A stretch of DNA of 64,000 nucleotides from Prorocentrum cordatum. Its lineage: Eukaryota > Sar > Dinophyceae > Prorocentrales > Prorocentraceae. The DNA lies in the NCBI GenBank assembly GCA_963575745.1, contig CAUYUJ010003925.1, forward strand, positions 137,501-201,500, written 5' to 3'. Under the pieces are notes generated by a model that searched no databases, was not told the DNA's origin, and worked only from the letters and a program-made list of their open reading frames with translations. Position numbers and translations under genes: made by a program. Shown here in pieces: positions 17,412 through 39,231 of this stretch; the stretch's first letter is position 1, and each line of letters begins with the position of its first letter.

Positions 17412-17505
17412 ACTTTTCTATTGAAGATGAATGCCTTTAGAGGGGAAGGGAGAGGCCGAATGCAGAATGCGTTGCGTCCTTTCAATAGCCTTCGGCTCTC
17501 GAGCT
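17412..17505 (+). repeat. Host element terminal repeat A1
   Basis: 94 bp beginning ACTTTTCTATTGAAGATGAA and ending CTTCGGCTCTCGAGCT; matches 39138-39231 with five substitutions and no gaps. It is the 5' outer repeat of a split-direct-repeat retroelement. Confidence 0.9.
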
Positions 17506-19045: not shown

Positions 19046-19273
19046 GACCCCGCCCCCATAGTACGGCGCTAGCGAAAACGCGGCCTGCTTTAAGGCCGCG
19101 GGACGTGCCAGCCGCGAAGCGGTTGAAGCGGGCCCTCAGGAGAAGATGATGATGATGGCGGCAGCGGTGCAGCCCCCCCCGTTTTGCTGCTGCGCTGGCC
19201 GCGCGCTCCCCCCGCCGGCGTGGACACGCCGGGCGGGCCCCTCCTTCCGCCACGCGAAGCGGGCCTCGCCGCC
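19046..19273 (-). repeat. Nested element terminal repeat B2
   Basis: 228 bp from GACCCCGCCCCCATAGTACG to GCGGGCCTCGCCGCC (plus strand). Differs from 19473-19700 at five positions. It contains a CGGCCTGC-TTTAA-GGCCGCG imperfect hairpin and a GAAGATGATGATGATGG tract. Confidence 0.92.
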
Positions 19274-19340
19274 GGTGCCGTTGGACACCGAGGCAAAGCC
19301 CAGGGTGGGTGGGCAAAAGAGGGCCCCTTTGGGCCCTGGG
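19274..19340 (-). other. Spacer between B2 and A2
   Basis: 67 bp not shared with the A1 flank. It holds a GGGCCCCTTTGGGCCC hairpin. The host element has a shorter spacer (39 bp) at the same place. Confidence 0.6.
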
Positions 19341-19472
19341 AGGGCTTTGAGCCCCGAAGGCTTGAGCGGGAGAGAGGGAAAGGGAAGGGCAAGCAGAGGC
19401 AGGAGCAGGGAGAGGAGAAAACCCAAGCCGACTGGGGAGGGCGGGGTCCAACCGTTTAGGACAAACAACTAA
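19341..19472 (-). repeat. Nested element repeat A2
   Basis: 132 bp ending ...GTTTAGGACAAACAACTAA on the plus strand and directly abutting B1 at 19473. The TAA|GACCCC junction is what a circular intermediate would carry. Matches 34498-34629 with four substitutions. Confidence 0.92.
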
Positions 19473-19700
19473 GACCCCGCCCCCACAGTACGGCGCTAGC
19501 GAAAACGCGGCCTGCTTTAAGGCCGCGGGACGTGCCAGCCGCGAAGCGGTTGAAGCGGGCCCTCAGGAGAAGATGATGATGATGGCGGCAGCGGTGCAGC
19601 CCCCCCCGTTTTGCTGCTGCGCTGGCCGCACGCTCCTCCCGCCGGCGTGGACACGCCAGGCGGGTCCCTCCTTCCGCCACGCGAAGCGGGCCTCGCCGCC
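19473..19700 (-). repeat. Nested element repeat B1
   Basis: Internal copy of the 228-bp B repeat. It is followed on the plus strand by TTTGTTCTAATG, which is absent after B2. Confidence 0.92.
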
Positions 19701-20599
19701 TTTGTTCTAATGATACTGGTGCTGCTGCCAGTGCCCCTGCACACTGGCCGCCTGGTTGATTCTACGCGCCGGCGTGCTGCGTGGGCGCCCTGATGGGCGT
19801 CGCCAAAACTGGGTGCCAGGCGCTGTGCTGCCGGCACCGTCTAGGCGCTGAGTCACGCATCGCCTGGCGTGTGCGCTGGCGTGCGTGTGGGGCCCCGCTG
19901 GCCCTCCTGTCTGCCGACTGCCGCCAGGCAACTGATGCCGGCGTGCGCGGCTATCCTCCGTGAGGCTAGGCCTTGGGCTCGCGCCGGTGCCTTGATTGCC
20001 GGCGGAGCCCGACCTCGGGCTGAGGCCCGAAGGTGTCGCCGCTGGCGCTCGGCACGGGCCGGTACTTGGCGCCCCCGTCCGCGCCGCGGCCTCCAGATCT
20101 CCCGGCTCCCCGCCTCCACAGGTGCCCAAGGTGCACGGGGCGGGCAGGGTCCGGCCCCTGACAGAGGGGGTTCCCCGGGCCGGCGCTGGGGTGCGGGCCC
20201 GTGCCTGCGCATGAATTCTAGTGCTGCGGCCGCACTGGGCCGTCAGATTGCCAGCTACTGTGTCACAGCTGACGTCAGTATGCCCGGCACGACCAGGCTT
20301 GGTATAGAGAGCCGGCGTGCCGGGCGGGTTCCAGCATGGTCCTCGTCCAGGGCTGCAAGGGGACCCACAGTTTCCCAGGCACTAGTGGGGCCCTGACGGA
20401 CGAGCCTATGCGCATGCGTCTGCCGTGAGGTATTAGCCAGTGCTGAAGGCACAGGCGGGTGTACTCTGCGAGCGCGCGGCTGCTCGCCGGCGGGGCAGGT
20501 GGCTGGTGGCTGCGCCCAAGCACGCACGGCGGGAAGGCCGGCGGCTTGGGTTGGGCGCACGCCAGGTGCGTAAGCACCGGCGGCGCCCGCTGCGGCCCC
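19701..20599 (-). other. 3' non-coding region of the nested element
   Basis: About 900 bp between the recombinase stop and B1. No credible protein motif in any frame and no inverted repeat recognised. Confidence 0.5.
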
Positions 20600-23500
20600 T
20601 CATGGGCTCTCACGCCTGGCGCTCTCGGCGCCGGCGGCAGCTCTGCTGGGGGCGCTGTCCTTCGCCGGGTTGGTCAACGAGGAGGTGCCCCTGGCCATCT
20701 TGCCGGAGATGCCCTTCATCGGCTCGTGCGATTCCCACAGGTAGCCGTGGAACGCGTCCGACTGCCAGCGCCCGAATCGGCGCACTCGGGAGAGGTCCTC
20801 GGTCACGTGGTACATTGCAGTCGCCCCGCCGATCCTCAGGGAATGGCTGCCGATCTCCTCTCTGGAGAGGCCTACGGCCAGCCCCGCGACCGTCAGGAAG
20901 TGCTGCACCTCTGCCCTGCGGATCGGTGTACCTGACGCCCAGCGGAAAAGGGGCAGCCGTTCTTCGGTGCCCTTTATCCGCTGAGGATGGTGAGCCTGGA
21001 GCCGCTCCGTCGCCGCGATCGGGCAGAGCAACGTGCCGGCGCGGTAGTGGTTCCTCACCGTCCCGACGTTGAGCTGATCCGTCTTGCTGCCCTTGATGTA
21101 GATCACCATCTCGTCGGCGTCCTGGAAGCTGGCCACTCGCTTCCCCTCCTTCTTGGGCCCTACGTCCTCCCCGTGCAGCACGCGCTCGAAGGACCACGAG
21201 CGCCCGTCCTGGAGGAGGTACTCTGAGGCCCTCAGGAGGAAGAAAAACGCTGTCACAATAGCCGCCCAGATGACCACTGCATCCTCCTCGGGGAGCTTGG
21301 CCTCCTGCTGGAGAAAGCCGCGGAGCCATTCGAGCATGGCTGGCGTGACGGGCTTCTTCCGCTTGGTCTCGGGCCCCCGCCAGCGTTTCAGCCCTGCCAG
21401 CGTGCTCCAGAGGCGACCTCTGTGGAGCAAGGGGTCCGAGTAGCCGGCCACCAGGTGGGCGTAGCGCACCGCGAAGAGCTTCTGCTTGATGGTCCCCTCG
21501 GTCCTCCCGACGACCCGCGCTAGGAGGACGGCGAAGTTGATGAGCGCTTCCTCGTCGGCCAGGCGGTCCTCGCGATCACGTCCTGGGAGCCAAGGGCTAA
21601 GCCCTTGCGCCTGGCGCGCGGCCACCCAGAGCCGCCATCCTCCCTCGTAACCTGCCCTTGTGCCTTCGCTGAGTTTCTGCAGCATGGCCTCCATCTTCTG
21701 CTGCGCGAACCAGCCGGCGTAGTTGGCCCCGCCAGGCTCAGCGCGGCCGGCGGGGGCGAGATCTTTCCCGGGGTAGTTGTTCTTCCGAGCTACGCCCAGC
21801 GCTTGCGGCCTCACCAAGTCGGTTGCTGGCATCTCTTTGGCACGTCGAGGGCTCTTTTTGCGAGGGCTCTTCGAGCGAGTTACACCTTTGTCTAGCTTGA
21901 CCTTCTCGGCGGCCGGGGCCTCGCGGGGTCCGATGAGCGTGTCCTCGTCGATCATCTTGAAGCGGACTGCCTGGGCACGCCGGCGATTCTTGTGCATCTC
22001 GTCGGTGAGCGCTCCTCCGGCCCTCGCCTCGTCCTCTGCTGCCAGCGCCAGGGCGGGCTGATCTGGTGCCTGTGCCCAGGCGCGGAACCAGCGCTTGGTG
22101 GCCTCCCACGCGGCCTGCTCCTCTGGATCATGGCATGCCCCGGCACGCTGCGTGCTGGTGTTGTCGAGCGCCTCTGTCACTGCGGTCAGCGCCGCCTCCG
22201 CGGTCCTCGGCGGGAGCGCCCTGGCTGCGCCTTTCAGGAGTTCGTCCTCGGTGGAGCCCTGGGTTCGCAGGTGGGTCCACTCGTCGTTGGTCCCTCCCTG
22301 CGCTCGCCAAACCTCTTGGGGTGTCAGGGCGCGGACCGCGCCCCCGCCCCCTCCGGTGACACGGAGGAGCGTCGCTCCAGGTCCTTGGAGTTCTGCCCCT
22401 GGCCAGCGGATGGTGCCCACCGGCCCCTCCTCACTGTGGATCAGGTGCTTCACTCCATCCTTCTTGAGGTGCCCGACCGGCTTAAGGAGGAGGGGGTCGC
22501 TGGCGGACTGGATGTGGGGGTCCCATGACACTTCGCCCTGTTGATCGAGCCATAGGTGGTCTTTTCCCTTGTCCAGGAGAGGCTTGACGCTGGCAGCTCG
22601 CGAGCAGGCCGGCGGCATGTTAATGCGCGCCAGGCCCACTCCCGCTTTCCGACGCCCGCCCACGAGCACCCGCCTGGTCCGCGTCGCGGCGTCCCCGTGG
22701 TGCGTGCAGACCACCTCGAACTTCGAGACCATGTAGCCCAGCTGCTTGAGTGCCTTCTCGAACCTGGCTGTGTCTACCCCGGTCGGGGCGTCCACGACCA
22801 CCACTTCAGGGCTCTCCTGAGTTGCTGCAACGAGGAAAGCCTCCATCTCTCGGCCCTTGGGGTCCAGGGACAGCGACGCCATGAGCCATCCTGCCTTCTG
22901 GTTCTCCTCGGGCTCCGATCCCCCGAGGCGCTTGAAGGCCGTCGTGTGCGGGTTGATGAGACCCCCCACTTCTCGGCCCAGTTTCCCTCGGAGCGGGAGA
23001 GTCCTCGGCAGCCCATGTCCTCGCTGAAGTGCCCGGTGTCGAAGGGCAGCCTCGGCCACGGGGCCCGTCTCCCCGGGGAGTCTGAGAAGGCGCTCCTTGG
23101 CGTCCTCCAGTATCTGGCCCCAGGCTGCAGGAGGCTCTAGGCGCTTCCATCCTGAAGTGGCCAGCGTGTCGTGAACCTTCTTGACCTCTTCGCGAGTAAG
23201 CCAGTCAGCCACCTCGTTGTGGTAGGTCCTCACAAAGAACGAGACGATGCGGCACCCGTGCATGGCTTCGATCCTTTCCACCAGACGGATCAGGTGGCGG
23301 GCAAGGGCGTTCTTGGGGCTTCTCTTGGTGAGCCAGGCCTTCACATTCTGATTGTCCGTGACGTAAGACACCAACTCGCCTTCCCACTTCGAGCCCTGCT
23401 TCGTGGCCAACGCGACCACCGCCAACAGCTCAACCACCGCTATGATCCAGTCCTCCTCGCTGCTTTCGCCTCCGACCGCGTGACTCAGGGCCTCGAGCAG

Positions 23501-24919
23501 TGGTCCGGCGTCCGCGGCCACGTACTCCGGCGTCGGCGCGGCACCCCCTGCAGTTGCGCTCCCCCAGTCGATGGCGCCGATCGAGGAAGTGGTAGCATCT
23601 CCGCCTGTCCACCGCGTGGTACGTGCTGTTCCCGGCAGTGCGAGGCGTTCGCGCACCGACAGAGCCTGCGTGAAGCTGGCCTGGAAGGTCGTGCTCCAAG
23701 CCTCAGGGACGTCGAAGAGCATCCTCAGAAACCCCACCGACGCGTCCCACTCCTCCCAGGCGAGCTCGACTTCCTCAGGCGTGCCCTTCGGCTCTGCCCA
23801 GCTCGTCCCGCTGCTCAGGAGCCGGTCCAGGGCGGGGAGCTCGGGGCGGAGGGCCGGCTGTGCTGAAGCCCAGAACTGAGCACAGCCTCGCAGCTCTTGG
23901 GCGACCTTCAGTGGGACCCGCCTTGATCCTCTGAGCTCCGGGAGGGCGAGCAGGTACTGAGCCTTGATGCATTTGGGTTCTGGGAGCCTAACCACCTTCG
24001 TGTCGAAGTTCATGTGGAGGCCCCAGATCAGCTGCTCTGCCGCGAACTCCCCCTCGACGTCCAGTTTCTCCTCGTTAACTGCGTCCGGGCCCCAGACTCG
24101 CTTCATGGCCCCGTCGAGCTCCTCGGCCGAGAGCCAGGGTCGGAGGCCCACCAGCGGCTCGAGGACAACCCCGTCGTCCATGAGCCACTTGGAGGCGTAC
24201 CTGACGGTATCGTTGATCCTGGGCGCCGGCGGCTTCCTCCTCTCGTGCTCGCTCTTGGCCGCCCAGGCGAACGCCATGTACTCGCCCGGGCTGCCGGCCC
24301 AGCCGAAGACCAGCACGCCGTGGATCAGGATAACTCGCCCTGGCACTCCGACCTCCTTGCCCGGGAGCGTCGTCCCGAACTCTGGCACGGCCGCTGGCTC
24401 CAGGTGGTGCCACTTGAAGGCCCTGGCCACGTCGCGCTTCGCCACCACCTGCTGGACGCCCGGGCGCCTCGCCTCCCACCAGAGGCTGAGCCTCGCAAGC
24501 CCCCTGTGGAGGGGCTGCTTCGCTGGCGGGTGCTGCTCCTTCGGGGAGAAGGCGTTGGCCGCCCGCGTGTCGTGGATCGGCCGGCCCTCTTTCGAGATGG
24601 TCCGATCCGGCAACGCCTTGGGGGCCCTCCCGCTGGGCGACTCGACCAGCGCCGAGGCGGCGAGCACATCCTCGACCTCGTCCGAGGCCCAGAGGACAAC
24701 GCCGTAGCGGCTGTCCTTCCAGGCCTTCGAGTGCGACTTGGCCTGCGTGCGCGCCCGCTCCTCAGTGCGCCGCACGGGTACCCCCCCGGTGGCCATTGCC
24801 CGGAGGTAGGCGGCGTGGTGCGGGTCCAAGGACTTCTGCACGTCTTCCTGGAGTACGCCGCCCAGCGGGTTCCCATGGACCTCCTCCCGCGCGTGCTTCA
24901 GCAACTCGGCAGACCTCAC
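20600..24919 (-). CDS. RT-RNase H-MT-like-tyrosine recombinase polyprotein
   Basis: 1439 residues from the first possible start (GTG at 24919); probably made by a +1 frame change from the preceding ORF. RT: VAKRDVARAFKW (Asp163), VFGWAGSPGEYM (motif B), KWLMDDGVV (Asp248-249). RNase H: Asp451 or Asp441, Glu497, Asp522 in YVTDNQNVKAWL, and TYHNEVADWLTREE. A segment at about 690-880 resembles late C5-methyltransferase motifs: LGYMVSKFEVVCTHHGD then TRTRRVLVGG (motif VIII-like), and RALTPQEVWRAQGG (IX/X-like), but a motif-IV PC is missing. YR: Arg1230 in FFLLRASEYL, Lys1276/1279 in YIKGSKTD, HSLR (His1359, Arg1362), GRW (Trp1385) and Tyr1393. No internal stops; plausibly functional. Confidence 0.85.
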   Translation of the reverse strand: MRSAELLKHAREEVHGNPLGGVLQEDVQKSLDPHHAAYLRAMATGGVPVRRTEERARTQAKSHSKAWKDSRYGVVLWASDEVEDVLAASALVESPSGRAPKALPDRTISKEGRPIHDTRAANAFSPKEQHPPAKQPLHRGLARLSLWWEARRPGVQQVVAKRDVARAFKWHHLEPAAVPEFGTTLPGKEVGVPGRVILIHGVLVFGWAGSPGEYMAFAWAAKSEHERRKPPAPRINDTVRYASKWLMDDGVVLEPLVGLRPWLSAEELDGAMKRVWGPDAVNEEKLDVEGEFAAEQLIWGLHMNFDTKVVRLPEPKCIKAQYLLALPELRGSRRVPLKVAQELRGCAQFWASAQPALRPELPALDRLLSSGTSWAEPKGTPEEVELAWEEWDASVGFLRMLFDVPEAWSTTFQASFTQALSVRERLALPGTARTTRWTGGDATTSSIGAIDWGSATAGGAAPTPEYVAADAGPLLEALSHAVGGESSEEDWIIAVVELLAVVALATKQGSKWEGELVSYVTDNQNVKAWLTKRSPKNALARHLIRLVERIEAMHGCRIVSFFVRTYHNEVADWLTREEVKKVHDTLATSGWKRLEPPAAWGQILEDAKERLLRLPGETGPVAEAALRHRALQRGHGLPRTLPLRGKLGREVGGLINPHTTAFKRLGGSEPEENQKAGWLMASLSLDPKGREMEAFLVAATQESPEVVVVDAPTGVDTARFEKALKQLGYMVSKFEVVCTHHGDAATRTRRVLVGGRRKAGVGLARINMPPACSRAASVKPLLDKGKDHLWLDQQGEVSWDPHIQSASDPLLLKPVGHLKKDGVKHLIHSEEGPVGTIRWPGAELQGPGATLLRVTGGGGGAVRALTPQEVWRAQGGTNDEWTHLRTQGSTEDELLKGAARALPPRTAEAALTAVTEALDNTSTQRAGACHDPEEQAAWEATKRWFRAWAQAPDQPALALAAEDEARAGGALTDEMHKNRRRAQAVRFKMIDEDTLIGPREAPAAEKVKLDKGVTRSKSPRKKSPRRAKEMPATDLVRPQALGVARKNNYPGKDLAPAGRAEPGGANYAGWFAQQKMEAMLQKLSEGTRAGYEGGWRLWVAARQAQGLSPWLPGRDREDRLADEEALINFAVLLARVVGRTEGTIKQKLFAVRYAHLVAGYSDPLLHRGRLWSTLAGLKRWRGPETKRKKPVTPAMLEWLRGFLQQEAKLPEEDAVVIWAAIVTAFFFLLRASEYLLQDGRSWSFERVLHGEDVGPKKEGKRVASFQDADEMVIYIKGSKTDQLNVGTVRNHYRAGTLLCPIAATERLQAHHPQRIKGTEERLPLFRWASGTPIRRAEVQHFLTVAGLAVGLSREEIGSHSLRIGGATAMYHVTEDLSRVRRFGRWQSDAFHGYLWESHEPMKGISGKMARGTSSLTNPAKDSAPSRAAAGAESARRESP

Positions 24920-27900
24920 CCCGCTTCACGACCTCTGGCACCTTCTCGGGCTGGAAGGTGGGGTGGTCCGCGCACCACTTGACGTAGGCACGCGCCTCCT
25001 CCTGCGCCCTCCCACCGCTTGGTGCCGCCGGCGCCTCCCCCAAAGGGGGTCCCCCACAGCGGCCTCCCCGCGGAGGGGGCGGCCAAGGGGGCGGCATCAT
25101 CGGCGGCATGCCCGGCGGTCTGCAGATCTGCCCTGGGAGGAGTGGGCGCCACCCTGGAGGCCTCACCAGTGGCCGGACTGCGTGGTCCGGGGGCACGAGC
25201 TGCCTTGCTGGATCGTCTTGGCGGGGTCTGGGCTGCGATGGCTCCCCCTTGGAGGTGGCGCGCAGCTGGGCACCCAACGATCTCGGCTTGGGCCTGAGTG
25301 TGAGCTTCTCCCCGGACGTCCCTGCGCTGCCGGCGTCTGCCCTCCCGGTAGGGGGGTCTCCGCTGGAGGTTGTCGACCTGCCTGCGGCCCGCCTGGCTGC
25401 TTCCACGACCGTCATTGCCGAGCGGCTTCGCCTAGTTGGCGCGGCCTTCTGAGGGATCGTGGTGGGGAGTCTGCTCCTCTGATGCTGGGCTGGGTCTGAG
25501 GGGGTCTCCAGTACCTCGGGCGGCGGAGGTGCGCTCGGCGGTGGCCCTGCGCCTGCGGCGGGGGCGGGGCCTCCGCTGCCGCTGGCCCCAGGAGAGCTCT
25601 GGAAAGGTTCCTCCCTGCTCCGCCTGGCCGCTTCTGCTTGCCCGGGCCAGAGGCTCAGAGGATCTGGGTCCTCCGGGAGGGGGGGGTCTGGTCCCTCCTC
25701 GGTCCTCGCGTACGGCTTCCCCACCACCTCGTCTTCCGAGCTCTCGGCGGAGTCCGCGTCGTCGCTCGGGGGTTCCTCCTCCGCCTTCTCATACACGATT
25801 ATCTGGCGCTTCTTCGCGGGGGTGTCGTCCAGCTCCCCTGCCTTCACCATCTTGCGGGTCAGCCTCTCGAGGATGTCAACGTACTCGCTTGCGATCTCGC
25901 CCTGCTCTTCGTAGGGGGTGCCGGTCCAGCTCCGCGGTAGATCCTCGAACATGGAGCTGATGCCCTCGATCAGGAGCTCACGTGCTTTCCTCCTCCGATC
26001 AGGTCCTGTGGGATCGTCAGCTGAAACCCCGAGCAGGTTATTCAGGATGCACTCCGCTTCGTGGCACTTGTTCTCCCCATCCAGGATGGCCGAGGGCAGC
26101 GGGGTCTCGTCCTCCCAGGCTGGGTCGAGAGGGGTGGCCACGCTCTGCCCGCTGGGGGGTTCTGAGCTGGCCCGGCGGGGATGCCCGGCTTGCGCCTGCT
26201 CCGCCTCGCGCTTGCCGGCATCCCTCGCACGACGAGCCCGGCGGCGTTCCTTAGCCTCTGCCAGCTGTATCTGCAGCTCCTTGATGCGCTTCTCCTCCTC
26301 CTCCAGGACACCTACCTCGGCGGCTCTGGCAGCTTCGAGCTTCCTCCTTATGCTCTCCACCTTGATGCTGTCGGCTGAGCTGCCGCCGCTGCTGGACCCT
26401 CCAGCGGGTGCCTCGCGGCTTTGTCTCTGGAGGGCCTGGGCGGCAGCTTGCTGGAAGCGCTTCCCTCCTGAGTGCGGTGGGGGGGTCCGCCTGTTCCAGA
26501 CAACGCCAAGCTCCGGGCTGCCAAAGCCCTGGGAGCTGGCTCGGTCGGCGATCCTCAGCGTGACACTGCGGTGGGAAGCGGGAGTGGCTTCGCTGCGGTG
26601 CCACGGCGCCTCCTCACGCTCCTCGTCCACAGCCCTCTTGATCCAGCGTGGCGCCCAGGCTGCCCAATTCCCGATGTCTTCTTTCCCGATCCACAGGATA
26701 AGGCGTTCCCCGGGTTCGACTCGATCGTCGTCTTCCAAGGGCGGTCCCTCTGCTCCTGCGGTGTCTCCCTCGTCGGTGTAGACGAACAAGCGAAGCTCCT
26801 CGGGACTAAGAACGTCGTCGCGCAGCCACCTGCAGGTCATGAGGACGCTCTGGAGCTCGTGCGCGTACATGGGGGCCCCGGGGATCGGTATCCATCTGTC
26901 CCCCCGCTGCGGGAGAAGCACCTTGACTGGCTCGTCGGCTTGCTGCTCGGCTTGCCTGGACTTCTTGACCCTCCTGGGCGGCCCCTTCTCTTCCTCTTCC
27001 TCCTCTCCTTCTCCTTCGTCTCCCCCAGGTTCGTCGTCTCCACCATCTCCTCCAGGGCCCGGTGGTGGCGCTCCTCGGTCGGGGTCCCTCTTCCTCGCCT
27101 TGTTGCGCTTCCACCCTCCCCTCTTCTTGCCTCTGTTCGCGCACTGCCATCCTTTGAGCCCTGCTGGATGGTCTTCCTCCGCCTCCATCTCCATGACTGG
27201 CACGTCCTGGAAGCGAAAAGGAGGGGGGGGTTCCGCCAGGTGAACCCTGTCACCGGCTCCCGCCGCCATCTTGTCTCCGGCCCTCGTCGTGACGATGGGC
27301 TCGAGCTTCTTCAGGAGCTTCGCAGGGGGGGTCCCCGCCCCCGCAGCCTTGACGACCTCGGCCCAGGCAGCGCACAGCCTCGTCGGGCACTGGCCGGCGT
27401 AGCGGGTGCGTCGTAGTCCACGCTGACCGACCTGGAAGCCGAGGGTGCTCAACTCCTCCCGCAGGGCCTTGGCCAGCGGGGGGGCTCCGCTGGGGATGCG
27501 CCCGCCATCGTGCAGGTGTGGAGGCGACCGGTGTGAGATCTTGGCCGCGAAGTTGTCGGCTCGATCGCGCCCGTAGTACAAGGCCACGGCGCCTTCCGGG
27601 AGGTCCTCGAAGGCCCTCCCGGTGCGTGGTTCAACCCGGCTCCAGTGGAAGTTCACGGGCCCCAGTTTGCCGACGAGGTCGTTCAGCGGGCGCAGCAGCT
27701 CGGGTCCGAGCTGTGGGGTTTCCAGGGTCTTGGCGTCTGCGGCAAGACCCTGGGCCTGCACGCCTGCAAGGGCCAGTCGATTGGTCAGGCTCAGGATGTC
27801 TTTCTGCTCGGACTGGCTGAGCGAGAGCCTGGAGGAGTTGTAGTGGTCGATCTGGGTCTGGGTCAGGTCGTAGGGGAGAGGCCCCTCCAGGGCGACGTGT

Positions 27901-29699
27901 TCGTGCTGGTTGGTGCAGCGCCTCGCCAGAGAGAGCGCCCAGGGGTAGAGGCCCTTCGAGACCATCCAGAACGTCAGCTTGCGGTGCCGTTTCGCGGGCT
28001 CCTCTGGGGGCCCTAGCCCCCACTCGCACATAGCGACAGAGATAATCCGTGCCCCTGTGCGCTTCTGCAGCTGCTTGATCCTGGCCCTGTCCCAGATCTT
28101 CGGGTAGCGTCCGTCGCTGGCCGTGTTCTCGAGCATCCACTCCCGATCGTTGGCGTCGAGGCGCTCGCAGAGGTCGGCGGCGAAATATGTCATGATGTTG
28201 CTGTCGATCTCCGCCTGGACCGTCCCGTCGCCGTCCGGGTGCTCGAACGTGCGGGTCCCGCCGTTCTTGAGGCACCAAGCCGAATGGGTCGTACATGGTG
28301 GGGCCAACTGGTAGACGTTCGCCTCGTCGGGGCCTGGCGCGGCCCCAGCGTCGAGAAGGGGCCTCTCCCGCACCTGGGGGTCGAGGATGTCGTGCTCCTC
28401 TTGGGGCCCGGCCTGGGCCAGCGGATCCTGGAAGTACTCGACGGACGGGGCCGTCTGGAGTCCAGCTTCTCGCATCGCCTTGGTCCAGTTCCCCGTGCCT
28501 GCGAAGATCTCGCGGGCGCGGATGCCCCACGCGAAGGCGGGTCTGCGCAGGAGGGGCGCGAGGCCGGAGAAGTCCTCCTCCTCGAGCTCCTGGTTCCCGA
28601 CGGCGCCCTCACGCGTTGGGAGCTGAGCCTGTTGCATACGTTTGCAGTGCATGCAGGGAGGGGGCCGGCTAGGTATCACGGGCCTCGCGACCTCCTCTGA
28701 CTCCAGGTACATCTCCCAGCCGACTGTGAGCAGCTCGCGGACGGGCTTCCCAGCGAGTGTGCAGGTCTTGAGGATCTCCCCAAACGCCCGGCCTCGCTTG
28801 CTGGGGCTCTGGCTGCCGATGACCGGCGGCCGGAGCACCCGCATATGGCCTCGGTGAATCATGACGTGGACCTCCCTCTCGCTGGTCTGCGTCGGCAAGA
28901 CGGAGTCGATCTCGAGCTGGTTCCAGTGGTTGATCCTCCAGACCCGGACGGTGGTCGTGTTGAGGGCACTCAGGGGGAAGACCGCGATGCACCTGAAGTC
29001 CTTGTCGTGGTGCGGGTGCTGGACATCGTGGCAGCGCATCCGGAGCTCGGCTTCACGCGGTGAGACGAAAGGGGGGGCGTCCCCCAATGCGGCGGAGGCG
29101 GTGGTGGCTCCATCCCACAGCTCGCGGCGGAGCTGAGCAGCCAGGGCCTTCACGGCCGGCGCATCAGGCTCCTTATCTTCCCAGAGCAGGGCGGCCGCGA
29201 TGTGGAGCACCAAACACTGCCTGAGCTCTGCGTCACCTTCCTTGAGGCCGAGTCGGGTTCGCATCTCTTCATCGGGTTGGAGCTCGTCCTGGAAGTCGAG
29301 ATAGTCCCATTCTTGGTCCTGCACCGTGAGCTTCCCGCGGCCTACCCCAGCCTCCTCGTCCCAGGTGGCCCCTCCAATGCTGAGGTCCTGTGTGCTGCTC
29401 CTCCCCGCCTTTGATCCCAGCTTGTCGAGGGCCCGACCGGCTTCCTCGGCGAGGGTTGGCCCCCCGTCACGAGTCGCCTCCAGCAGTATCTCTTCCAAGC
29501 TTAGGGAGATGCCTTCTGAGCTGGCGCGTGCGAGCCTGGCCAGGGCGTGTGAATGCAGGTAGTCGCTGATGTCGCCCAGCGTCGCGATAGTCCCGCTCTC
29601 CAAGATCTTCTCGATGATGTTCCATCGTTCGAGGGCAGCTGGGTGTGTCGTCTCACCAGTCCCTTCCACCGCGGGCGCGTTGGCGTGGGCGTCCAGCAA
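24762..29699 (-). CDS. MT-like domain polyprotein (1645 aa)
   Basis: The frame is open from 29936 (TAA at 29937-29939) and the start shown is only a TTG, so it is probably reached by a -1 shift from Gag around 29.70-29.88 kb. Residues 396-402 (IFAGTGN) fit motif I of a methyltransferase. Then come LAPPCTTHSAW (466-475, PC motif), MLENTASDGRYP (522-533, ENxxS) and VAMCEWG...RHRKLTFWMVS (555-581), the same set seen in the host element MT. A segment near 250-292 (VRVWRINHWNQLEID...HRGHMRVLRP) is unassigned. Downstream are an acidic tract (near 27.0 kb), a likely coiled coil (about 26.37-26.19 kb, KLEAARAAEVGVLEEEEKRI) and a Pro-rich tail. It overlaps the next ORF by 158 bp in the +1 frame. Confidence 0.75.
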   Translation of the reverse strand: MLDAHANAPAVEGTGETTHPAALERWNIIEKILESGTIATLGDISDYLHSHALARLARASSEGISLSLEEILLEATRDGGPTLAEEAGRALDKLGSKAGRSSTQDLSIGGATWDEEAGVGRGKLTVQDQEWDYLDFQDELQPDEEMRTRLGLKEGDAELRQCLVLHIAAALLWEDKEPDAPAVKALAAQLRRELWDGATTASAALGDAPPFVSPREAELRMRCHDVQHPHHDKDFRCIAVFPLSALNTTTVRVWRINHWNQLEIDSVLPTQTSEREVHVMIHRGHMRVLRPPVIGSQSPSKRGRAFGEILKTCTLAGKPVRELLTVGWEMYLESEEVARPVIPSRPPPCMHCKRMQQAQLPTREGAVGNQELEEEDFSGLAPLLRRPAFAWGIRAREIFAGTGNWTKAMREAGLQTAPSVEYFQDPLAQAGPQEEHDILDPQVRERPLLDAGAAPGPDEANVYQLAPPCTTHSAWCLKNGGTRTFEHPDGDGTVQAEIDSNIMTYFAADLCERLDANDREWMLENTASDGRYPKIWDRARIKQLQKRTGARIISVAMCEWGLGPPEEPAKRHRKLTFWMVSKGLYPWALSLARRCTNQHEHVALEGPLPYDLTQTQIDHYNSSRLSLSQSEQKDILSLTNRLALAGVQAQGLAADAKTLETPQLGPELLRPLNDLVGKLGPVNFHWSRVEPRTGRAFEDLPEGAVALYYGRDRADNFAAKISHRSPPHLHDGGRIPSGAPPLAKALREELSTLGFQVGQRGLRRTRYAGQCPTRLCAAWAEVVKAAGAGTPPAKLLKKLEPIVTTRAGDKMAAGAGDRVHLAEPPPPFRFQDVPVMEMEAEEDHPAGLKGWQCANRGKKRGGWKRNKARKRDPDRGAPPPGPGGDGGDDEPGGDEGEGEEEEEEKGPPRRVKKSRQAEQQADEPVKVLLPQRGDRWIPIPGAPMYAHELQSVLMTCRWLRDDVLSPEELRLFVYTDEGDTAGAEGPPLEDDDRVEPGERLILWIGKEDIGNWAAWAPRWIKRAVDEEREEAPWHRSEATPASHRSVTLRIADRASSQGFGSPELGVVWNRRTPPPHSGGKRFQQAAAQALQRQSREAPAGGSSSGGSSADSIKVESIRRKLEAARAAEVGVLEEEEKRIKELQIQLAEAKERRRARRARDAGKREAEQAQAGHPRRASSEPPSGQSVATPLDPAWEDETPLPSAILDGENKCHEAECILNNLLGVSADDPTGPDRRRKARELLIEGISSMFEDLPRSWTGTPYEEQGEIASEYVDILERLTRKMVKAGELDDTPAKKRQIIVYEKAEEEPPSDDADSAESSEDEVVGKPYARTEEGPDPPLPEDPDPLSLWPGQAEAARRSREEPFQSSPGASGSGGPAPAAGAGPPPSAPPPPEVLETPSDPAQHQRSRLPTTIPQKAAPTRRSRSAMTVVEAARRAAGRSTTSSGDPPTGRADAGSAGTSGEKLTLRPKPRSLGAQLRATSKGEPSQPRPRQDDPARQLVPPDHAVRPLVRPPGWRPLLPGQICRPPGMPPMMPPPWPPPPRGGRCGGPPLGEAPAAPSGGRAQEEARAYVKWCADHPTFQPEKVPEVVKRGEVCRVAEARAGGGPWEPAGRRTPGRRAEVLGPAPRRLPPGNGHRGGTRAAH

Positions 29700-32600
29700 C
29701 CAGTCCTCCTCGGGGCCCTGAACGGCCTGCCTGAGCTCCTCCTCGAGGGCGGTGGTCTGGATCTCGTCAAAGGCGACAGGGGGGGCCAGACAGCCGGCGA
29801 GCCTCCCGCTCGGCTGCCTCCCGAAGAGGCCCCGGGGCCTTCTCCGGCGCTTGCGCCAGCCCTTTTGCTGTCCGCCTCGGCCTTGGCCTGGGCCCTGAGC
29901 TGAGCCACCATCCCGTCGACCGAGGCGGGGTCGACCTTAGCGCCAGACTTCAGGCCGCCACGCCTGATGAGCTGCGCCTGCACGGTCCAGTCCAAGCTGC
30001 CAAGCCCCTTGATGGCCTCGTGGGAGTGGGCGCAGGTCCCTGCCGCCTTGGGGCAGCCGGCCCAGGTGCAGGCGTCCCAGCAGATGACCTTCCCGTTCTT
30101 GTTACGGGGGGCGTGCTTGACCGAGCGCCCGATCTCGCTGGATGTCAGTGCCTTCCCCGCTGGGTGCGCCCGGGCGGCGGGCCGCTTCTTGGCAGCAGCC
30201 TTCTTGACGGCGGCCCCTGCCTTTCCTGTGCCCGGCCCAGCTCCTGCGGGTGCCTCCTGATCTGCTGGGGCGTGGTCGTCAGCCTTCCCGGCCTTGGGGG
30301 CCCTCGAGGGGCCGGCGTGGAGGTTCTGGTGGAGGAACCTCTGCAGCCGCCGGGCCTGGCGCGGGACGCACACCACCTGGCAGTGCCCATCCGGCGCGTC
30401 GAGGTCGTATACGTTCGGAAAGGTCAACCACGCACTCCCAGACGGCCCCGTGGGAGCGAGGGCGATGGTCTTGATGTCCTCCCGGCGCGGGTTGGTGAGC
30501 CCCAGGATGCGGCACACCTCCCTCCGCTTCTCCCGAAGCTGCTCGCACCAGGTTGCAGCGAGCTCTTCCCAGAGGCTGTGCACATAATCAGCTGGGAAGG
30601 CCACGTCGTCCTCCTCGTAGGCAAGGCGCAGGGTCTCCAAGGCTCGGCGCCGCCCTGGCTCGTGCATCCGCCCGTAGACTAGCCCGAAGACGGTGATGGC
30701 GTTCTCGGCCTGCCTCGCCCACTGAGAGAAGACGACTGGGTGCCGGGGGCGCGGCTCGAGCTTGCACGTGGTGGGCATGGTGTAGGCGTCAAACACCTCT
30801 GCTTTGCAATGGGGAAAGTCGGCCACGGAGATCGACCACTCGGCCAGATCCTTGTGGTCCCGTCCCCCCCAACAGAAGGCGGCGATGCCGTGCGCCATCC
30901 TGTTCGTCACCGTCGTCGGCCAGTTCACCGCCTGCATCGCGTGCTTCGCGTGCTCGCAGGCGCGCTTGAGGCCATGGAACAACTCTCGTCCGGTAAGGGT
31001 GCCGCAGACCTCCACGTCGAGGGTATCGCAGCCCCGCGCCAGGTACACGTCAAGCTCCTCGGCACGTCCGATGGCACCGAGGGTGCCCCGCTGCGCCACC
31101 TTTTCCTCCTCGCCGGACCTGCGGAGGCTGTCCACCGCCTGCAGCAGCCGCATGTTGTCCAGGTGCTGCTGCTCTTGACCGTTCTGGAGGACTTGTGCGT
31201 AGGTGGAGAAAGCGGCTGAGGGTTCGCCCTCTCCAGCTCCTGCGGCATACCTACGGTCGGGTTGCCCAGGGGTCTTAACCAGTCCCCCGTGTCCGTAGGC
31301 GCTCCGGTTGGCGAACATCTGCCCGAGATTCGGTACGAGGCCGGGCATCAAACCTGGCGGAGACAGGCGAGTAGCTCCCGGCACGCGCACGCCAGGCGGG
31401 GTAGCCGGCGGCGGCAATGGCGGAGCGCTCGCGGTGGCGTCCAGTCCAGGGGGAGCTCCAGGTTGGCCAGGTTCTTGGCTGGTGTCGGGCTTGCGCTCGG
31501 TGTCTAGCTTCAAGAGGCCACTGGCGAGGGGTGGGTTCACACCCTCATCTTTTTCGGCTCGGACCTGCTCCAACTTTCTTTCCCGCCTGTCGATGTGCGC
31601 CTGGTACTTGGCCCGCTCCTCGGTTCCGCTGCTGCGCATGAGGCGCCGGGTGTGCTTGATGAGGTGCCCCAAGACCGCGTTGACGTCCTCATCGTATCCT
31701 GCCGCCACGCTCTGCAGCGCCGAGGCGTCGTCCGATCCTTCCTCATGAGCAGCAAGGTACAGTCCCAGCATAGCCTCTCCGGTGTTCTCTTCTTCATGAT
31801 CCTTCCCTGCAGGACTGCGGGAAGAGCGTCGAGGGACTGAGGGGGCTGGATCAGCCTCCTCGCCCAGACCCCACCCGACGCCGAATAGGGGCTTGGGGGA
31901 GCTGCTGCGGTCGAGCCTCGCCCAGTGCTTCTTGAGCTGCGCGTCCAGCTCGTCGGAGGTGGGCTGCGGTGCTCCGGGGGCATCGCCGGAGGTGCCTGCT
32001 GGATGTCGGTACACAAGCAAGTCCCCGCGGGCCCGAAGCTGAGCCCACTGAGGGCGGCCGATCCTCTTGGTCTCCCCGCCCACGGGGACCCCGTTCCAAG
32101 GACGCAGCTTCTCCCACATGGTGTTGCTCACGACGACGCCGTGCACCCCGATCCCCATTTCCTCGGCACCGAGTGGAGGGTGATACAAGAGCTCCTCAAG
32201 GTAGCCGGCGGGGAGCCTTCCCTGGTCGCTGGCGACGGGAGCGTACTCGATCCCCGCGGTCTTGAGGGTGAAGCAGACGTTCTCCTGGCCCTCTGCAGAG
32301 TAGTCTTTGCAGCGCGGCTCCTCCACGTCTACTACAGTCGTGCTGCCATCTCCGGTGGGCCCTCCTCCGGGACGGGACTTCCCCAAGAAGATGACCCACT
32401 GCGGGCCGGCGGCCCAATGCACTCGTACACGCAGTACGAGAGAGTCACCTTGCTCGGCCTCCTCGTCTGGGGCAGGGCTGGCATCCCGCGGGAGGGGCAC
32501 CCTCGGAGAAGGCGGCGCTTCGAACCTGACACCAACAGGTGGACCTCGTGGTGAGGCTGATGCATCCCGTAGGTGTTGCCCAGAGGTTGCCTGTCCGCGG

Positions 32601-33049
32601 TGGCTCTCCGGTCCCCGAGCTCCGTCTGCGGGGGGGGCTGCGTTGCCTGGGACGCCCTGCTCGCGCGCCCGTGGGCTGCGACTGCGGACCGTCCGGCGTC
32701 GCAGGCCCAGACTCGAGAGGAATCCGCGGCCTTGGACGGCTGCGGCTGCCTGCGCTGCTCGGCCTGCTTCTCCACCCAGATGAAGGAGACATAGTGGTAC
32801 GCCCTCCGCATTGCCAACTTCCTGACGGTAACAAGTCACCTGCGAACATTTATCACGATACCGAGAGGCTCGGTAGACCTGGGCATGATGTGCGCAGAGA
32901 TGGGCGAAAGAGTTCCGCCCGTCACTAGGTGGCGGGAGGTCTGACGCCTGTCCGTCCTCGAAGAGCAGGGTGGTCGGCTCGGCCTCCGCGGCGCCCCGGC
33001 AACCGTCCGGTGCCAAGGGGCGGGCGCCGCCGCGAAGTACGATGCCCAC
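29501..33049 (-). CDS. Gag-like protein with two Cys/His clusters
   Basis: Open frame of 1182 residues from a GTG; the frame is really open up to a single TAG at 33074-33076, with no ATG just after it. Residues 50-90 hold a Cys/His cluster (HLCAHH, CSQVTC, PLCLLHL). A second, at about 987-1012, reads ICWDACTWAGCPKAAGTCAHSHE and resembles a CCCH-type finger. The middle is rich in charged and Pro/Gly segments. Gag identity is inferred from zinc-binding clusters and position before pol. After about 29.88 kb this frame becomes Arg/Ser-rich and loses sense, while the -1 frame takes over. Likely nucleic-acid-binding structural protein. Confidence 0.7.
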   Translation of the reverse strand: MGIVLRGGARPLAPDGCRGAAEAEPTTLLFEDGQASDLPPPSDGRNSFAHLCAHHAQVYRASRYRDKCSQVTCYRQEVGNAEGVPLCLLHLGGEAGRAAQAAAAVQGRGFLSSLGLRRRTVRSRSPRAREQGVPGNAAPPADGARGPESHRGQATSGQHLRDASASPRGPPVGVRFEAPPSPRVPLPRDASPAPDEEAEQGDSLVLRVRVHWAAGPQWVIFLGKSRPGGGPTGDGSTTVVDVEEPRCKDYSAEGQENVCFTLKTAGIEYAPVASDQGRLPAGYLEELLYHPPLGAEEMGIGVHGVVVSNTMWEKLRPWNGVPVGGETKRIGRPQWAQLRARGDLLVYRHPAGTSGDAPGAPQPTSDELDAQLKKHWARLDRSSSPKPLFGVGWGLGEEADPAPSVPRRSSRSPAGKDHEEENTGEAMLGLYLAAHEEGSDDASALQSVAAGYDEDVNAVLGHLIKHTRRLMRSSGTEERAKYQAHIDRRERKLEQVRAEKDEGVNPPLASGLLKLDTERKPDTSQEPGQPGAPPGLDATASAPPLPPPATPPGVRVPGATRLSPPGLMPGLVPNLGQMFANRSAYGHGGLVKTPGQPDRRYAAGAGEGEPSAAFSTYAQVLQNGQEQQHLDNMRLLQAVDSLRRSGEEEKVAQRGTLGAIGRAEELDVYLARGCDTLDVEVCGTLTGRELFHGLKRACEHAKHAMQAVNWPTTVTNRMAHGIAAFCWGGRDHKDLAEWSISVADFPHCKAEVFDAYTMPTTCKLEPRPRHPVVFSQWARQAENAITVFGLVYGRMHEPGRRRALETLRLAYEEDDVAFPADYVHSLWEELAATWCEQLREKRREVCRILGLTNPRREDIKTIALAPTGPSGSAWLTFPNVYDLDAPDGHCQVVCVPRQARRLQRFLHQNLHAGPSRAPKAGKADDHAPADQEAPAGAGPGTGKAGAAVKKAAAKKRPAARAHPAGKALTSSEIGRSVKHAPRNKNGKVICWDACTWAGCPKAAGTCAHSHEAIKGLGSLDWTVQAQLIRRGGLKSGAKVDPASVDGMVAQLRAQAKAEADSKRAGASAGEGPGASSGGSRAGGSPAVWPPLSPLTRSRPPPSRRSSGRPFRAPRRTGCWTPTPTRPRWKGLVRRHTQLPSNDGTSSRRSWRAGLSRRWATSATTCIHTPWPGSHAPAQKASP

Positions 33050-33073
33050 CCGAACAGCCTCACATGGCTTGTC

Positions 33074-34444
33074 CTAGGCCTCCACCTCCGACTCTGACTC
33101 CTGATCCAAGACCTCTGCGATGCTCCCTGCAACGCCTGGCTCCGCAGCGCCTGTCTTGCGACGGCGGCGTCGCCGGCAGCAGAAGGAGCAACCGCAGGAG
33201 AGGATGCAGTAGAGGAACACGATAACCTTCCAGATGCCCCTCCCCAGGTCGGCGACGGTCCGCCATAGCAGGAAGATGCCGCGGCAGGAGGTGAACCTGG
33301 CGTGGGAACCGATGTCCACGATCGCCTCGGAATCCAACGCAGCGTACTCTTTGCAATGAACTTCTCCAGGCTGATCTCTACAGACCATGTTGCGGCACAG
33401 GTGGATGGAACGGCCTTCGAGCGACTCCAGCTTCTGGCGGAGTGCGCGTGAGCTTGCCCCCTTCACGCCCAGGTAGTCTATCCAAAGGCCCTTCCTGTCG
33501 ATCCGCTTGGGCTCCGAAAGGTCGACCTTCAACCGGGCCACGTGGTCGTCGATCTTGATCAGCACGTCATTGGGTCGCCTCCCAGTCCCACGACCCTTCA
33601 CCTTCTTACTGTAGTACTCAGTGGTCGTGGCTGGTCCGGTCTCTGGCCCCATCCAGTTGATCTGGGTAAGGGCAGGCGGAGCCGGCGGCAGGTACCTTTC
33701 GGCAGCTGCATCGCCAGGCTCTCGCCGGCGGCACTTGGAGCACCGCGCCAGTAGACCAATCAGCCAGAGGGCGGCTGCGCAGGGGGCCAGTAGAGTACGA
33801 CAGATATGAGTAAGAAAAGCAAGCACCGCCAAGAAAGCCAAGAAGATGAACGCCCATGCCACGGCAGGCCAGGCGGCTCCGAAGACCGTCAGGCCCAGCT
33901 TCTCGAGAGCATAGAAGAACCATCCGCCATCCTTGGTCAGCCAGCCCGTCTCGGCGTGGGTGGAGAAGGCGCTCCCGAGGCTGTCAAGCTTCTCGTAGGC
34001 GACCTCGCCCATGCCACTCAGGCGCCAGGCCCAGGTGCCCTCACGTAGTGGCTTCAACCCTAGCGCCCAGACACCCCAGCCGCCCACCCAAGACTCCTCG
34101 CTGCCTGGGTTCTTGGTGGGATAGCTGCCATTCTCGACTCCTCCGGCGGCCTGGGCTGGAGGCGGGGGCGGCGCTCCCGGCGGCCCGCTGTCGGGCGGCG
34201 CCTGGGGGCTGCCTGCATCCCCACCCTCTTCCTCGTGCTCGCCGATCTCCATGCCGTACTCGGAGTCGTCGCAGTACGGCACGGTGCGCCCGAACGGGAC
34301 CTCCTGGGCCGCAGCCGGGCGGCCCCATCCGGCGCGGGCAACAGCAGAACTGAGCGGCCCGCGCCAGTCGTAGGCGGCCGCGCTGGTGATCAGCGCGATC
34401 AGCCCGCGTGCCGGGCCTGCCAGCGCTGGGCGCCAGGCAGCCAT
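33074..34444 (-). CDS. Membrane protein with signal-peptide-like N-terminus
   Basis: The ATG at 34444 begins MAAWRPALAGPARGLIALIT, a plausible cleavable signal ending near SAAAYDW. The frame is open further back to 34549, inside repeat A1, but without ATG. From the ATG: an acidic, Pro-rich extracellular-like region with one NGS sequon (about residue 105); a strong hydrophobic segment at 186-212 (AWAFIFLAFLAVLAFLTHIC) with another at 218-233; a soluble stretch with Cys residues; then hydrophobic 401-422 (IWKVIVFLYCILSCGCSFCC) followed by a run of Arg. It stops at TAG, beyond which the same frame continues into the Gag-like ORF. No family recognised; an Env-like role is only a guess. Confidence 0.7.
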   Translation of the reverse strand: MAAWRPALAGPARGLIALITSAAAYDWRGPLSSAVARAGWGRPAAAQEVPFGRTVPYCDDSEYGMEIGEHEEEGGDAGSPQAPPDSGPPGAPPPPPAQAAGGVENGSYPTKNPGSEESWVGGWGVWALGLKPLREGTWAWRLSGMGEVAYEKLDSLGSAFSTHAETGWLTKDGGWFFYALEKLGLTVFGAAWPAVAWAFIFLAFLAVLAFLTHICRTLLAPCAAALWLIGLLARCSKCRRREPGDAAAERYLPPAPPALTQINWMGPETGPATTTEYYSKKVKGRGTGRRPNDVLIKIDDHVARLKVDLSEPKRIDRKGLWIDYLGVKGASSRALRQKLESLEGRSIHLCRNMVCRDQPGEVHCKEYAALDSEAIVDIGSHARFTSCRGIFLLWRTVADLGRGIWKVIVFLYCILSCGCSFCCRRRRRRKTGAAEPGVAGSIAEVLDQESESEVEA

Positions 34445-34497
34445 GGCACGCGCGCTTCCGGGCGCCGAGGGCGCCCAGACCTCCTGAGGTCGGCTCC

Positions 34498-34629
34498 AGG
34501 GCTTTGAGCCCCGAAGGCTTGGGCGGGAGAGAGGGAAAGAGAAGGGCAAGCAGAGGCAGGAGCAGGGAGAGGAGAAAACCCAAGCCGCCTGGGGGGGGCG
34601 GGGTCCAACCGTTTAGGACAAACAACTAA
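34498..34629 (-). repeat. Nested element terminal repeat A1
   Basis: 132-bp outer 5' repeat of the minus-strand element, ending AACAACTAA at the host junction (host resumes with TCCACGTG). Transcription would presumably start in or near it, but no promoter motif is recognised. Confidence 0.9.
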
Positions 34630-34934
34630 TCCACGTGACGAACCTCCTCGGCGTGGAGCGGACGCTGCGGAAGATGCAGCTGATCGAGCACTTCTGGGAC
34701 GAGAAGCAGCGAGAGCAGGATGCTGGACAACTGAAGCTGCCGGTGGAAGATGTCTCCGCCTTCGTGGGCGGCGCGGGTCTGTCGAGCCGCCCGAGCAGCA
34801 TGGCGCGCCCCGCCCTGCCGGGCGTCGTCGGGAAGGAGCTCGAGCGCATCAGTCAGATCAAGAAGAACGCCCGCAAGCTGCGGGAGGAGGCGAAGGCCGC
34901 CGATGGGCCGAAAGCCAGCGGAGCCAAGGCGTAA
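34630..34934 (+). CDS. Host element Gag-like protein, 3' part
   Basis: Continuation of the frame that starts at 17917. The split codon is G at 19045 plus TC at 34630-34631. It reads on through NLLGVERTLRKMQLIEHFWD, a charged and probably helical segment, and ends in a Lys/Ala/Glu-rich helix (ERISQIKKNARKLREEAKAA) before TAA. Exact frame continuity over a 15.6-kb insert shows that the insertion neither duplicated nor deleted host bases. Gag decayed little before the interruption. Confidence 0.75.
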
Positions 34935-35047
34935 CTCTCTCATGCCCGGGGGGGCCCAGTGGCCCAGCCCCCCCGGGCGCTACGGCATCGGGGCCCGTCT
35001 CGGCGACAACCTGTGGCGCTGAGGGTGTACATGGCACATTCGACGGC
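34935..35047 (+). other. Host element Gag-RT spacer
   Basis: Short GC-rich interval with a GCCCGGGGGGGCCC-type hairpin soon after the Gag stop. No slippage signal recognised. Confidence 0.4.
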
Positions 35048-38140: not shown

Positions 38141-38159
38141 GGAGGCTGCTGGCCCCCCG

Positions 38160-38998: not shown

Positions 38999-39135
38999 TG
39001 GCCGTGGGGCCGTGCGCTAACGCACACATTCGGTTGATGAATTATCTCTCTTGCCGGCCCCAGAGTCGTTCACGGTGCTGCCTCTTGCTGTCTAACAGAA
39101 TCCGACCTGGCCTCGGAAATAACATCGGCGGGCAT
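38999..39135 (+). repeat. Host element repeat B1
   Basis: 137 bp starting TGGCCGTGGGGCCGTGCGC and ending CATCGGCGGGCAT; matches 39271-39407 with seven substitutions and no gaps. Only GG separates it from A2. Confidence 0.9.
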
Positions 39136-39137
39136 GG

Positions 39138-39231
39138 ACTTGTCTATTGAAGATGAATGCCTTTAGCGGGGAAGGGAGAGGCCGAATGCAGCATGCGTTG
39201 TGTCTTTTCAATAGCCTTCGGCTCTCGAGCT
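39138..39231 (+). repeat. Host element repeat A2
   Basis: 94-bp internal copy of A1. It lies between B1 and B2, which is the diagnostic split-direct-repeat order and would be the template for a circular intermediate junction. Confidence 0.9.

Follow-up and report, generated by a model that had tools for sequence, protein, structure and literature searches.

Analysis of a 64,000-nucleotide stretch of the genome of the dinoflagellate Prorocentrum cordatum (contig CAUYUJ010003925.1, positions 137,501 to 201,500; hereafter the window, in whose own numbering all coordinates are given) showed that its minus strand carries a 15,584-bp retroelement at 19046..34629, bounded by split direct repeats in the order A1-ORFs-B1-A2-B2. 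Its open reading frames (ORFs) encode a reverse transcriptase (RT), an RNase H and a tyrosine recombinase (YR), together with hydrophobic, Gag-like and methyltransferase-like (MT-like) regions. The element is one insertion, two to three times the usual length for its class; described Ngaro/DIRS elements measure about 5-7 kb and have two or three ORFs. From 5' to 3', its features are the following.

19046..34629, minus: whole element, 5' end at 34629, recognized by its split direct repeats, a bracketing outer element and flanks without target-site duplication
34498..34629, minus: repeat A1, 132 bp, 5' terminus, 97% identical to A2
33077..34444, minus: ORF1 from its first ATG, 456 codons, N-terminal polyprotein part with hydrophobic segments, from hydropathy and the homologues P0024, P0023, P0035 and P0017
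33746..33865, minus: two adjacent hydrophobic segments of ORF1, candidate transmembrane segments (Kyte-Doolittle 19-residue means 2.55 and 1.75)
33074..33076, minus: in-frame TAG between ORF1 and ORF2, at a place where P0023 continues without a stop
29504..33073, minus: ORF2, 1190 codons, Gag-like by position and a Cys/His cluster
30020..30082, minus: CCCH-like Cys/His cluster of ORF2, residues 998-1018, read from the sequence
29779..29785, minus: run of seven C (C7) in the ORF2/ORF3 overlap, with the frame change at the run or shortly upstream
24765..29936, minus: ORF3, 1724 codons, in relatives fused with stretches of ORF2 and POL
27867..28559, minus: MT-like domain of ORF3, residues 460-690, with F-A-G-T-G, P-P-C, and E-N-T then GRYPK, from the alignment of relatives
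20603..24925, minus: POL, 1441 codons, comprising the next four regions
23726..24748, minus: RT, approximate limits, D165, D250, D251 (LMDD)
23126..23653, minus: RNase H, approximate limits, D443, E499, D524, D574
22211..22888, minus: C-terminal segment resembling a cytosine-5 methyltransferase (C5-MTase-like), approximate limits, phrog_116 E=2.2e-8, M.HhaI profile match E=0.0073
20696..21703, minus: YR, approximate limits, R1232, K1281, H1361, R1364, W1387, Y1395, PF00589 E=0.0067
19473..19700, minus: repeat B1, 228 bp, 98% identical to B2
19341..19472, minus: repeat A2, 132 bp, abutting B1
19046..19273, minus: repeat B2, 228 bp, 3' terminus, 98% identical to B1

The split-repeat arrangement, which an initial annotation had read from the letters alone, is borne out: the copies are 97-98% identical, A1 and A2 differing at 4 of 132 bases and B1 and B2 at 5 of 228 (9/360 in total, 2.5%). 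B1 passes into A2 with no spacer (GGGGTC then TTAGTTG), and a 67-bp spacer lies between A2 and B2. Perfect 10-bp inverted arms, GGGCGGGGTC (19482-19473) and GACCCCGCCC (19448-19439) on the minus strand with 24 bp between them, surround the B1/A2 joint and may be recombinase-binding arms. Within the window, a blastn search with the repeats returned the listed copies and no others; tblastn with the four ORFs and 39 related proteins, run after masking of the element, gave no match at E<=1e-3; and a tRNA search, an Rfam search and exact spliced-leader matching returned nothing.

The 15.6 kb entered as one piece, because a second set of split direct repeats, on the plus strand, encloses the whole unit in an outer element at 17409-39407.

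17409-17505, plus: outer repeat A1', 6/97 differences from A2'
38999-39135, plus: outer repeat B1', 7/137 differences from B2'
39135-39231, plus: outer repeat A2', pairing with A1'
39271-39407, plus: outer repeat B2', pairing with B1'

The outer element alone, with the 15,584-bp insert subtracted, measures 6,415 bp, which is normal for the DIRS order. Joining the flanks at 19045/34630 (GAGG then TCCA) leaves no bases duplicated, i.e., there is no target-site duplication, and a plus-strand frame of 639 codons spans the joint. A 408-codon frame also spans it on the opposite strand, so that at such G+C a long joined frame is weak evidence alone, and the bracketing outer repeats are the stronger argument for a single insertion. 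The difference in divergence between inner and outer repeats (9/360 versus 13/234; Fisher p=0.07) is only suggestive; the order of insertion is shown by the nesting itself.

Measured from stop to stop, the four long minus-strand frames have 512 (ORF1), 1190 (ORF2), 1724 (the MT-like ORF3) and 1441 (POL) codons, and G+C is higher at the third than at the second codon position in all of them. When the element was resampled 500 times under a first-order Markov model, the longest frame never exceeded 597 codons and the fourth longest never exceeded 315; on these results and the existence of homologues, we reject an origin of the frames by chance in GC-rich DNA.

RT, RNase H and YR were all found in POL with their expected residues, as the initial annotation had claimed; which positions count as catalytic is our assumption. 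An alignment of POL proteins (alignment A1; 15 rows, the window copy and 14 of the 24 relatives then known) has the RNase H residues D443, E499, D524 and D574 identical in 15/15 rows. Among rows with letters at the position, the RT aspartate pair is kept in 13/13 and D165 in 11/12, and the first arginine, the lysine and the second arginine of the YR are kept in 13/13, 11/11 and 12/12, respectively. PF00589 is matched at E<=1 by 10 of the 15 members, window copy included (best E=8.5e-5). The YR shares the RT frame in the window copy, and relatives such as P0002, P0003, P0005, P0006 and P0025 (numbers are our own) likewise have it in one protein with RT. The presence of RT, RNase H and YR in one element places it in the DIRS order, as does the lack of a target-site duplication at the window site.

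Between RNase H and YR lies the C5-MTase-like segment, which resembles the phage DNA-methyltransferase family phrog_116 (4/15 members of alignment A1 match at E<=0.1) and recurs in distant relatives, e.g., P0017 and P0033. A 10-sequence profile containing it (profile A2) matched residues 94-286 of M.HhaI, a solved cytosine-5 methyltransferase, at E=0.0073. On its own the segment should not be catalytic, because the catalytic Cys of M.HhaI lies N-terminal to the matched stretch and because D-A-P-like residues align with the M.HhaI ENV position. Pfam DNA_methylase was matched by 0/15 members of alignment A1, and no match to a Dam-type (adenine) methyltransferase was obtained in Pfam or NCBIfam.

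Three protein searches, each scoring the 7,999-8,000 candidates that shared the most words, yielded the 39 relatives. Organism names accompany nine, all dinoflagellates (Symbiodinium, six; Polarella glacialis, two; Prorocentrum cordatum, one). One relative, P0035 (2856 aa), contains stretches of ORF1 (313-420), ORF2 (663-1068), ORF3 (66-685) and POL (5-717) in order within one protein, and is the only one of the 39 collinear with all four. Others carry parts of the series: P0023 joins ORF1, ORF2 and ORF3 up to residue 640, and P0024 the same three to residue 244 of ORF3; P0015 is ORF2-ORF3-POL, P0018 and P0022 hold ORF2 and POL, and P0017 has hydrophobic segments, ORF1, ORF3 and POL including the YR. 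ORF3 and POL occur together in 12/39 (P0008, P0009, P0010, P0014, P0015, P0017, P0019, P0025, P0031, P0033, P0035 and P0036), and the remaining relatives have POL stretches only. The absence of a part says little, given search length limits and short contigs, and so does its presence where a gene model may fuse exons. Scans of viral contigs and genome contigs found no locus of a relative.

In a midpoint-rooted RT-RNase H tree of 34 rows, the window copy adjoins P0008 (66% identical over 483 columns; support 100/99), and P0035 lies across the deepest split from it; P0011 and P0019 have long end branches. The ORF3 and membrane parts look old in the lineage, because proteins carrying them (window copy counted) occur on both sides of that split. 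The proposal of the initial annotation that this is a giant YR-retroelement lineage with a recurring gene set is supported by P0035, which holds all four stretches in order and lies on the far side of that split. That annotation had also reckoned with a chance assembly of neighbors, should related copies lack the membrane and MT parts: this check favors the element, as P0035, P0023 and P0024 carry membrane and ORF3 parts in one protein; the ORF1 part was matched in 4 of 39 relatives. In all four of these, a hydrophobic segment overlaps the match or sits just upstream of it. The shared gene order and the single nested insertion are our grounds for rejecting the chance assembly.

Some relatives carry further domains. 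P0005, P0006, P0012, P0016 and P0025 have a DnaJ label, confirmed by hmmscan in P0025 and three members of alignment A1; the domain follows the YR in P0005, P0006 and P0025. Four DnaJ-labelled rows fall in one ten-row clade of the tree with six unlabelled rows, and P0025 lies just outside. A tRNA 2'-phosphotransferase (Tpt1/KptA, PF01885) lies downstream of RNase H in P0029 and P0032 (E=1.2e-28 and 2.2e-27), in P0029 between RNase H and YR, and these two rows pair up in the tree. DnaJ and KptA are probably later additions.

The separation of the ORFs in the window copy is read as damage, because relatives carry both sides of its joints in one protein. P0023 continues in a single frame, with no stop, over the ORF1/ORF2 joint and also over the ORF2/ORF3 joint, and P0002, P0003, P0009 and P0010 cross the ORF3/POL joint in one frame. 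At the latter joint the window copy has a frame change and lacks 10 residues that are present in all seven relatives with aligned letters (P0002, P0003, P0005, P0006, P0009, P0010 and P0017; P0018, an eighth row with letters, is not alignable there). Its POL also lacks 11 residues found in 9/9 relatives covering the place, P0004 beginning inside this stretch. The simplest reading is that the separate ORFs represent a single long polyprotein interrupted by a TAG, a change of frame and a small deletion. The copy has probably lost full function; a homopolymer sequencing error at C7 is a possible source of the ORF2/ORF3 frame change.

ORF1 has hydrophobic segments by Kyte-Doolittle hydropathy at residues 194-212, 215-233 and 404-422, counted from the first ATG, and a single N-G-S sequon at residue 105. 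ORF2 combines its CCCH-like cluster with a Cys/His-rich N-terminal stretch, also read from the sequence, so that the Gag-like protein with Cys/His clusters named by the initial annotation was recovered; it is 46% identical to P0023 over residues 632-1070, and profile searches of Pfam, other family libraries and PDB gave no convincing match. The membrane protein of that annotation survives in part: its hydrophobic segments are present in ORF1, but it does not appear to be a separate gene, since relatives join the membrane and Gag-like parts. Because of this fusion we reject a separate envelope-type gene; the membrane part appears to be the N-terminal portion of a Gag-like polyprotein. The search tables attach the label PF26692.1 to P0022, P0023, P0024 and P0035; hmmscan against Pfam did not report it.

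Within the MT-like domain of ORF3, the F, G, P, C and E of the motifs are invariant in the eight rows of alignment A5 (the window copy and seven relatives; P0014, P0017, P0025 and P0031 were left out). In a ten-row ORF3 alignment, for which P0017 and P0031 were too partial, nine rows have P-C, and P0025 has P-S and no E. The phage DNA methyltransferase family phrog_363 was matched weakly, at E=0.003 by the window piece and E=0.039 by the whole frame, and by 3/8 members of alignment A5 at E<=0.1. A PDB profile search with the domain gave no match at E<=10, and a longer ORF3-RT profile found only three unrelated PDB chains (E 0.3-0.8).

The outer element has an RT-like frame at 34508-36442 on the plus strand (RVT_1, E=0.00024), and a Pfam search of 20 ORFs around the inner element gave one weak RT match. 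By eye, no intact YR was seen in the outer-element frames inspected, no profile search for one having been made, and its plus-strand frame 38141-38851 has MT-like motifs (GVPCETWS ... VENPAMSRLW), such that an MT-like domain may perhaps be common to the inner and outer elements. Imperfect repeats with a 9-bp step occur at 41684-42242.

Our results strongly suggest, with a probability that we put at about 0.88, that the unit is a single DIRS-order (YR) retroelement of a dinoflagellate lineage encoding one very long polyprotein. Its order would be a short N-terminal region, the hydrophobic segment or segments, a Gag-like region with Cys/His clusters, the MT-like region (ORF3), RT, RNase H, the degenerate C5-MTase-like segment and YR. 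Transcription would start from A1 and be followed by translation of the polyprotein and presumably its processing; the membrane-anchored Gag-like part could gather RNA and enzymes on a membrane, where assembly might take place. RT and RNase H would then make cDNA, which the split repeats could close into a circle whose joint corresponds to the B1/A2 sequence, and YR would recombine this circle into the genome without target-site duplication, the lack of which was observed at the window site. By analogy with what has been proposed for dinoflagellate DNA methyltransferase (DNMT) retrotransposons (PMC5890265; papers are cited here by PMC number and, unless stated otherwise, for excerpts of their text), the MT-like parts may mark the cDNA by methylation.

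Several points weigh against this reading. The ORF3 domain is called MT-like, not MT; this designation and the name Gag for ORF2 rest on position and motifs, profile searches of PDB having returned nothing for either. The YR histidine, tryptophan and tyrosine are kept in 10/12, 11/12 and 10/12 rows of alignment A1, some relatives being damaged or misaligned, and the similarity of P0017 and P0035 to ORF1 covers a short stretch (E about 1e-5). Several of the related proteins carry a partial label or may come from automated gene prediction that fused exons; the recurrence of the gene set is drawn from the relatives' proteins, and the split repeats were observed in the window copy. On the tree, a long-branch warning applies where the KptA pair joins the ten-row clade with P0035 and P0017 at the deep split, and the presence of an ORF3 part is not strongly clustered (4 changes; 69/500 shuffles as low).

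An ordinary 5-7 kb Ngaro/DIRS element that encloses unrelated neighboring ORFs by chance would agree with the small sizes described (3,974-6,283 bp for DIRS1-like elements, PMC3266345; about 6-7 kb for the Ngaro of Cafeteria, PMC12220804), but it is scarcely credible given that the terminal repeats bracket the full 15.6 kb, that one protein of another genome has all four ORF stretches in order, and that the unit is a single insertion within another element. The unit could instead be a true Ngaro that acquired extra genes and, later, its MT-like segment, as the split direct repeats downstream of YR and the RT-RNase H-YR order on one strand would allow; we consider this unlikely, as the C5-MTase-like segment sits in POL in relatives as distant as P0017 and P0033, and published rules set Ngaro apart by the absence of an MT (PMC4157794 and PMC3266345, in the parts cited).

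The interruptions might also be programmed, with TAG read-through and frameshifting at C7 and near ORF3/POL regulating the Gag-to-Pol ratio in an active copy. One stop and two frame changes only in about 14 kb of frames, repeats just 2.5% apart, and a C7 run at the ORF2/ORF3 joint speak for such recoding. It is nevertheless improbable in view of the relatives in which one protein holds the parts on either side of a joint (P0023, P0024 and P0035; 12 proteins for ORF3 and POL), of the residues missing at ORF3/POL (10, present in 7/7 relatives) and in POL (11, in 9/9), and of the possible homopolymer error at C7. Finally, the two MT-like pieces might be a split C5-MTase re-assembled after cleavage of the polyprotein, ORF3 giving motif I and the catalytic Cys and POL the target-recognition part and motifs IX/X. 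The F-x-G, P-C and E of ORF3 do stand at motif I, IV and VI positions in 8/8 rows of alignment A5, nothing is recognizable by eye in ORF3 after motif VIII, and POL matches M.HhaI only from residue 94, after the presumed place of the Cys. Both pieces contain a motif VI/VIII-like stretch, however, and thus overlap rather than divide cleanly; database support for an ORF3 methyltransferase is weak, and P0025 lacks both Cys and Glu in the ten-row alignment, all of which makes a split enzyme very unlikely.

A single polyprotein-encoding DIRS-order element remains our preferred reading, and it bears on whether a non-retroviral retroelement can use membranes, for which it is a direct test case. The initial annotation had suggested that the lineage may have an extracellular or vesicular phase. 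It is conceivable, though we regard it as doubtful, that the lineage assembles membrane-bound particles, with the N-terminus luminal and the Gag-like region cytosolic, that bud into vesicles or leave the cell. P0017 has a signal-like hydrophobic start, read by eye, and P0017, P0024 and the window copy have N-glycosylation sequons ahead of their hydrophobic segments; P0023 and P0035, whose N-termini are possibly truncated, have no sequon there, which counts against such particles. We know of no YR retroelement with a virus-like enveloped phase, and if this proposal were true, the lineage would, as far as we know, be the first. A lineage of such long elements, in which methyltransferase-like parts accompany a membrane-anchored Gag-like polyprotein and which occurs in Symbiodinium and, partly, in Polarella and Prorocentrum, would widen what the YR order can carry; it is also relevant to the unusual DNA methylation of dinoflagellates and to their repeat load.

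Among known systems, split direct repeats in the order A1-ORFs-B1-A2-B2 are found in both the PAT group and Ngaro, and an MT is present in PAT/DIRS and absent from Ngaro in the descriptions excerpted (PMC4157794, PMC3266345). The Ngaro label of the initial annotation is therefore not supported: the element shares with Ngaro its split direct repeats downstream of YR, but it has the phrog_116 and M.HhaI matches in POL and MT-like motifs in ORF3, and it exceeds the 6-7 kb or so of the Cafeteria Ngaro (PMC12220804). "Ngaro" is probably the wrong label, a judgment based on features and not on a tree with named references; PMC4157794 itself cautions that features of this sort are homoplasious and not enough to classify by on their own. 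The PAT elements also combine split direct repeats with an MT domain, and Pat1 has a zinc finger in Gag (PMC4157794); however, the MT of the DIRS class is described as a Dam-like adenine methyltransferase (PMC5890265), whereas the POL match here is to a cytosine enzyme, and the window element encodes one long polyprotein in about 4,800 codons of open frame. DIRS1-like elements have the same Pol order of RT, RNase H and MT and no target-site duplication but differ in their inverted terminal repeats, in a YR in its own ORF, and in size (28 annotated elements of 3.97-6.28 kb; PMC3266345); the window element is about 2.5 times as long as the longest of them, which has 6,283 bp. Cryptophyte viruses contain nested elements of about 4-9.5 kb that bear an RT and often have direct repeats; the excerpt of PMC12220804 that mentions them does not class them as YR elements.

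The nearest described relative in kind, compared by description, is SymbioDIRS-Dnmt3 (de Mendoza et al. 2018, PMC5890265), which has a dinoflagellate host, A-coding-B-A-B repeats, a tyrosine recombinase, and an RT with a cytosine-MTase domain in Pol, and whose diversity is common to Symbiodinium species. Its YR is a separate ORF, whereas that of the window element is fused to Pol; Pfam recognizes its DNMT, in which key residues are retained, whereas the POL segment here is without the catalytic motif; and the window element has membrane and Gag-like regions joined upstream, the word "gag" occurring 0 times in the text of that paper, whose excerpts state neither an element length nor a membrane part. 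The 2018 work is cited for dinoflagellate DNMT retrotransposons in PMC6338049 and PMC12344493, and the excerpts of PMC12721341 have nothing on such elements. A literature search whose coverage excluded most subscription journals found no published element of like kind. Compared with these systems, what is apparently new in the window element is its size, the fusion of YR to Pol, and the fusion of a hydrophobic (membrane) segment to the Gag-like region.

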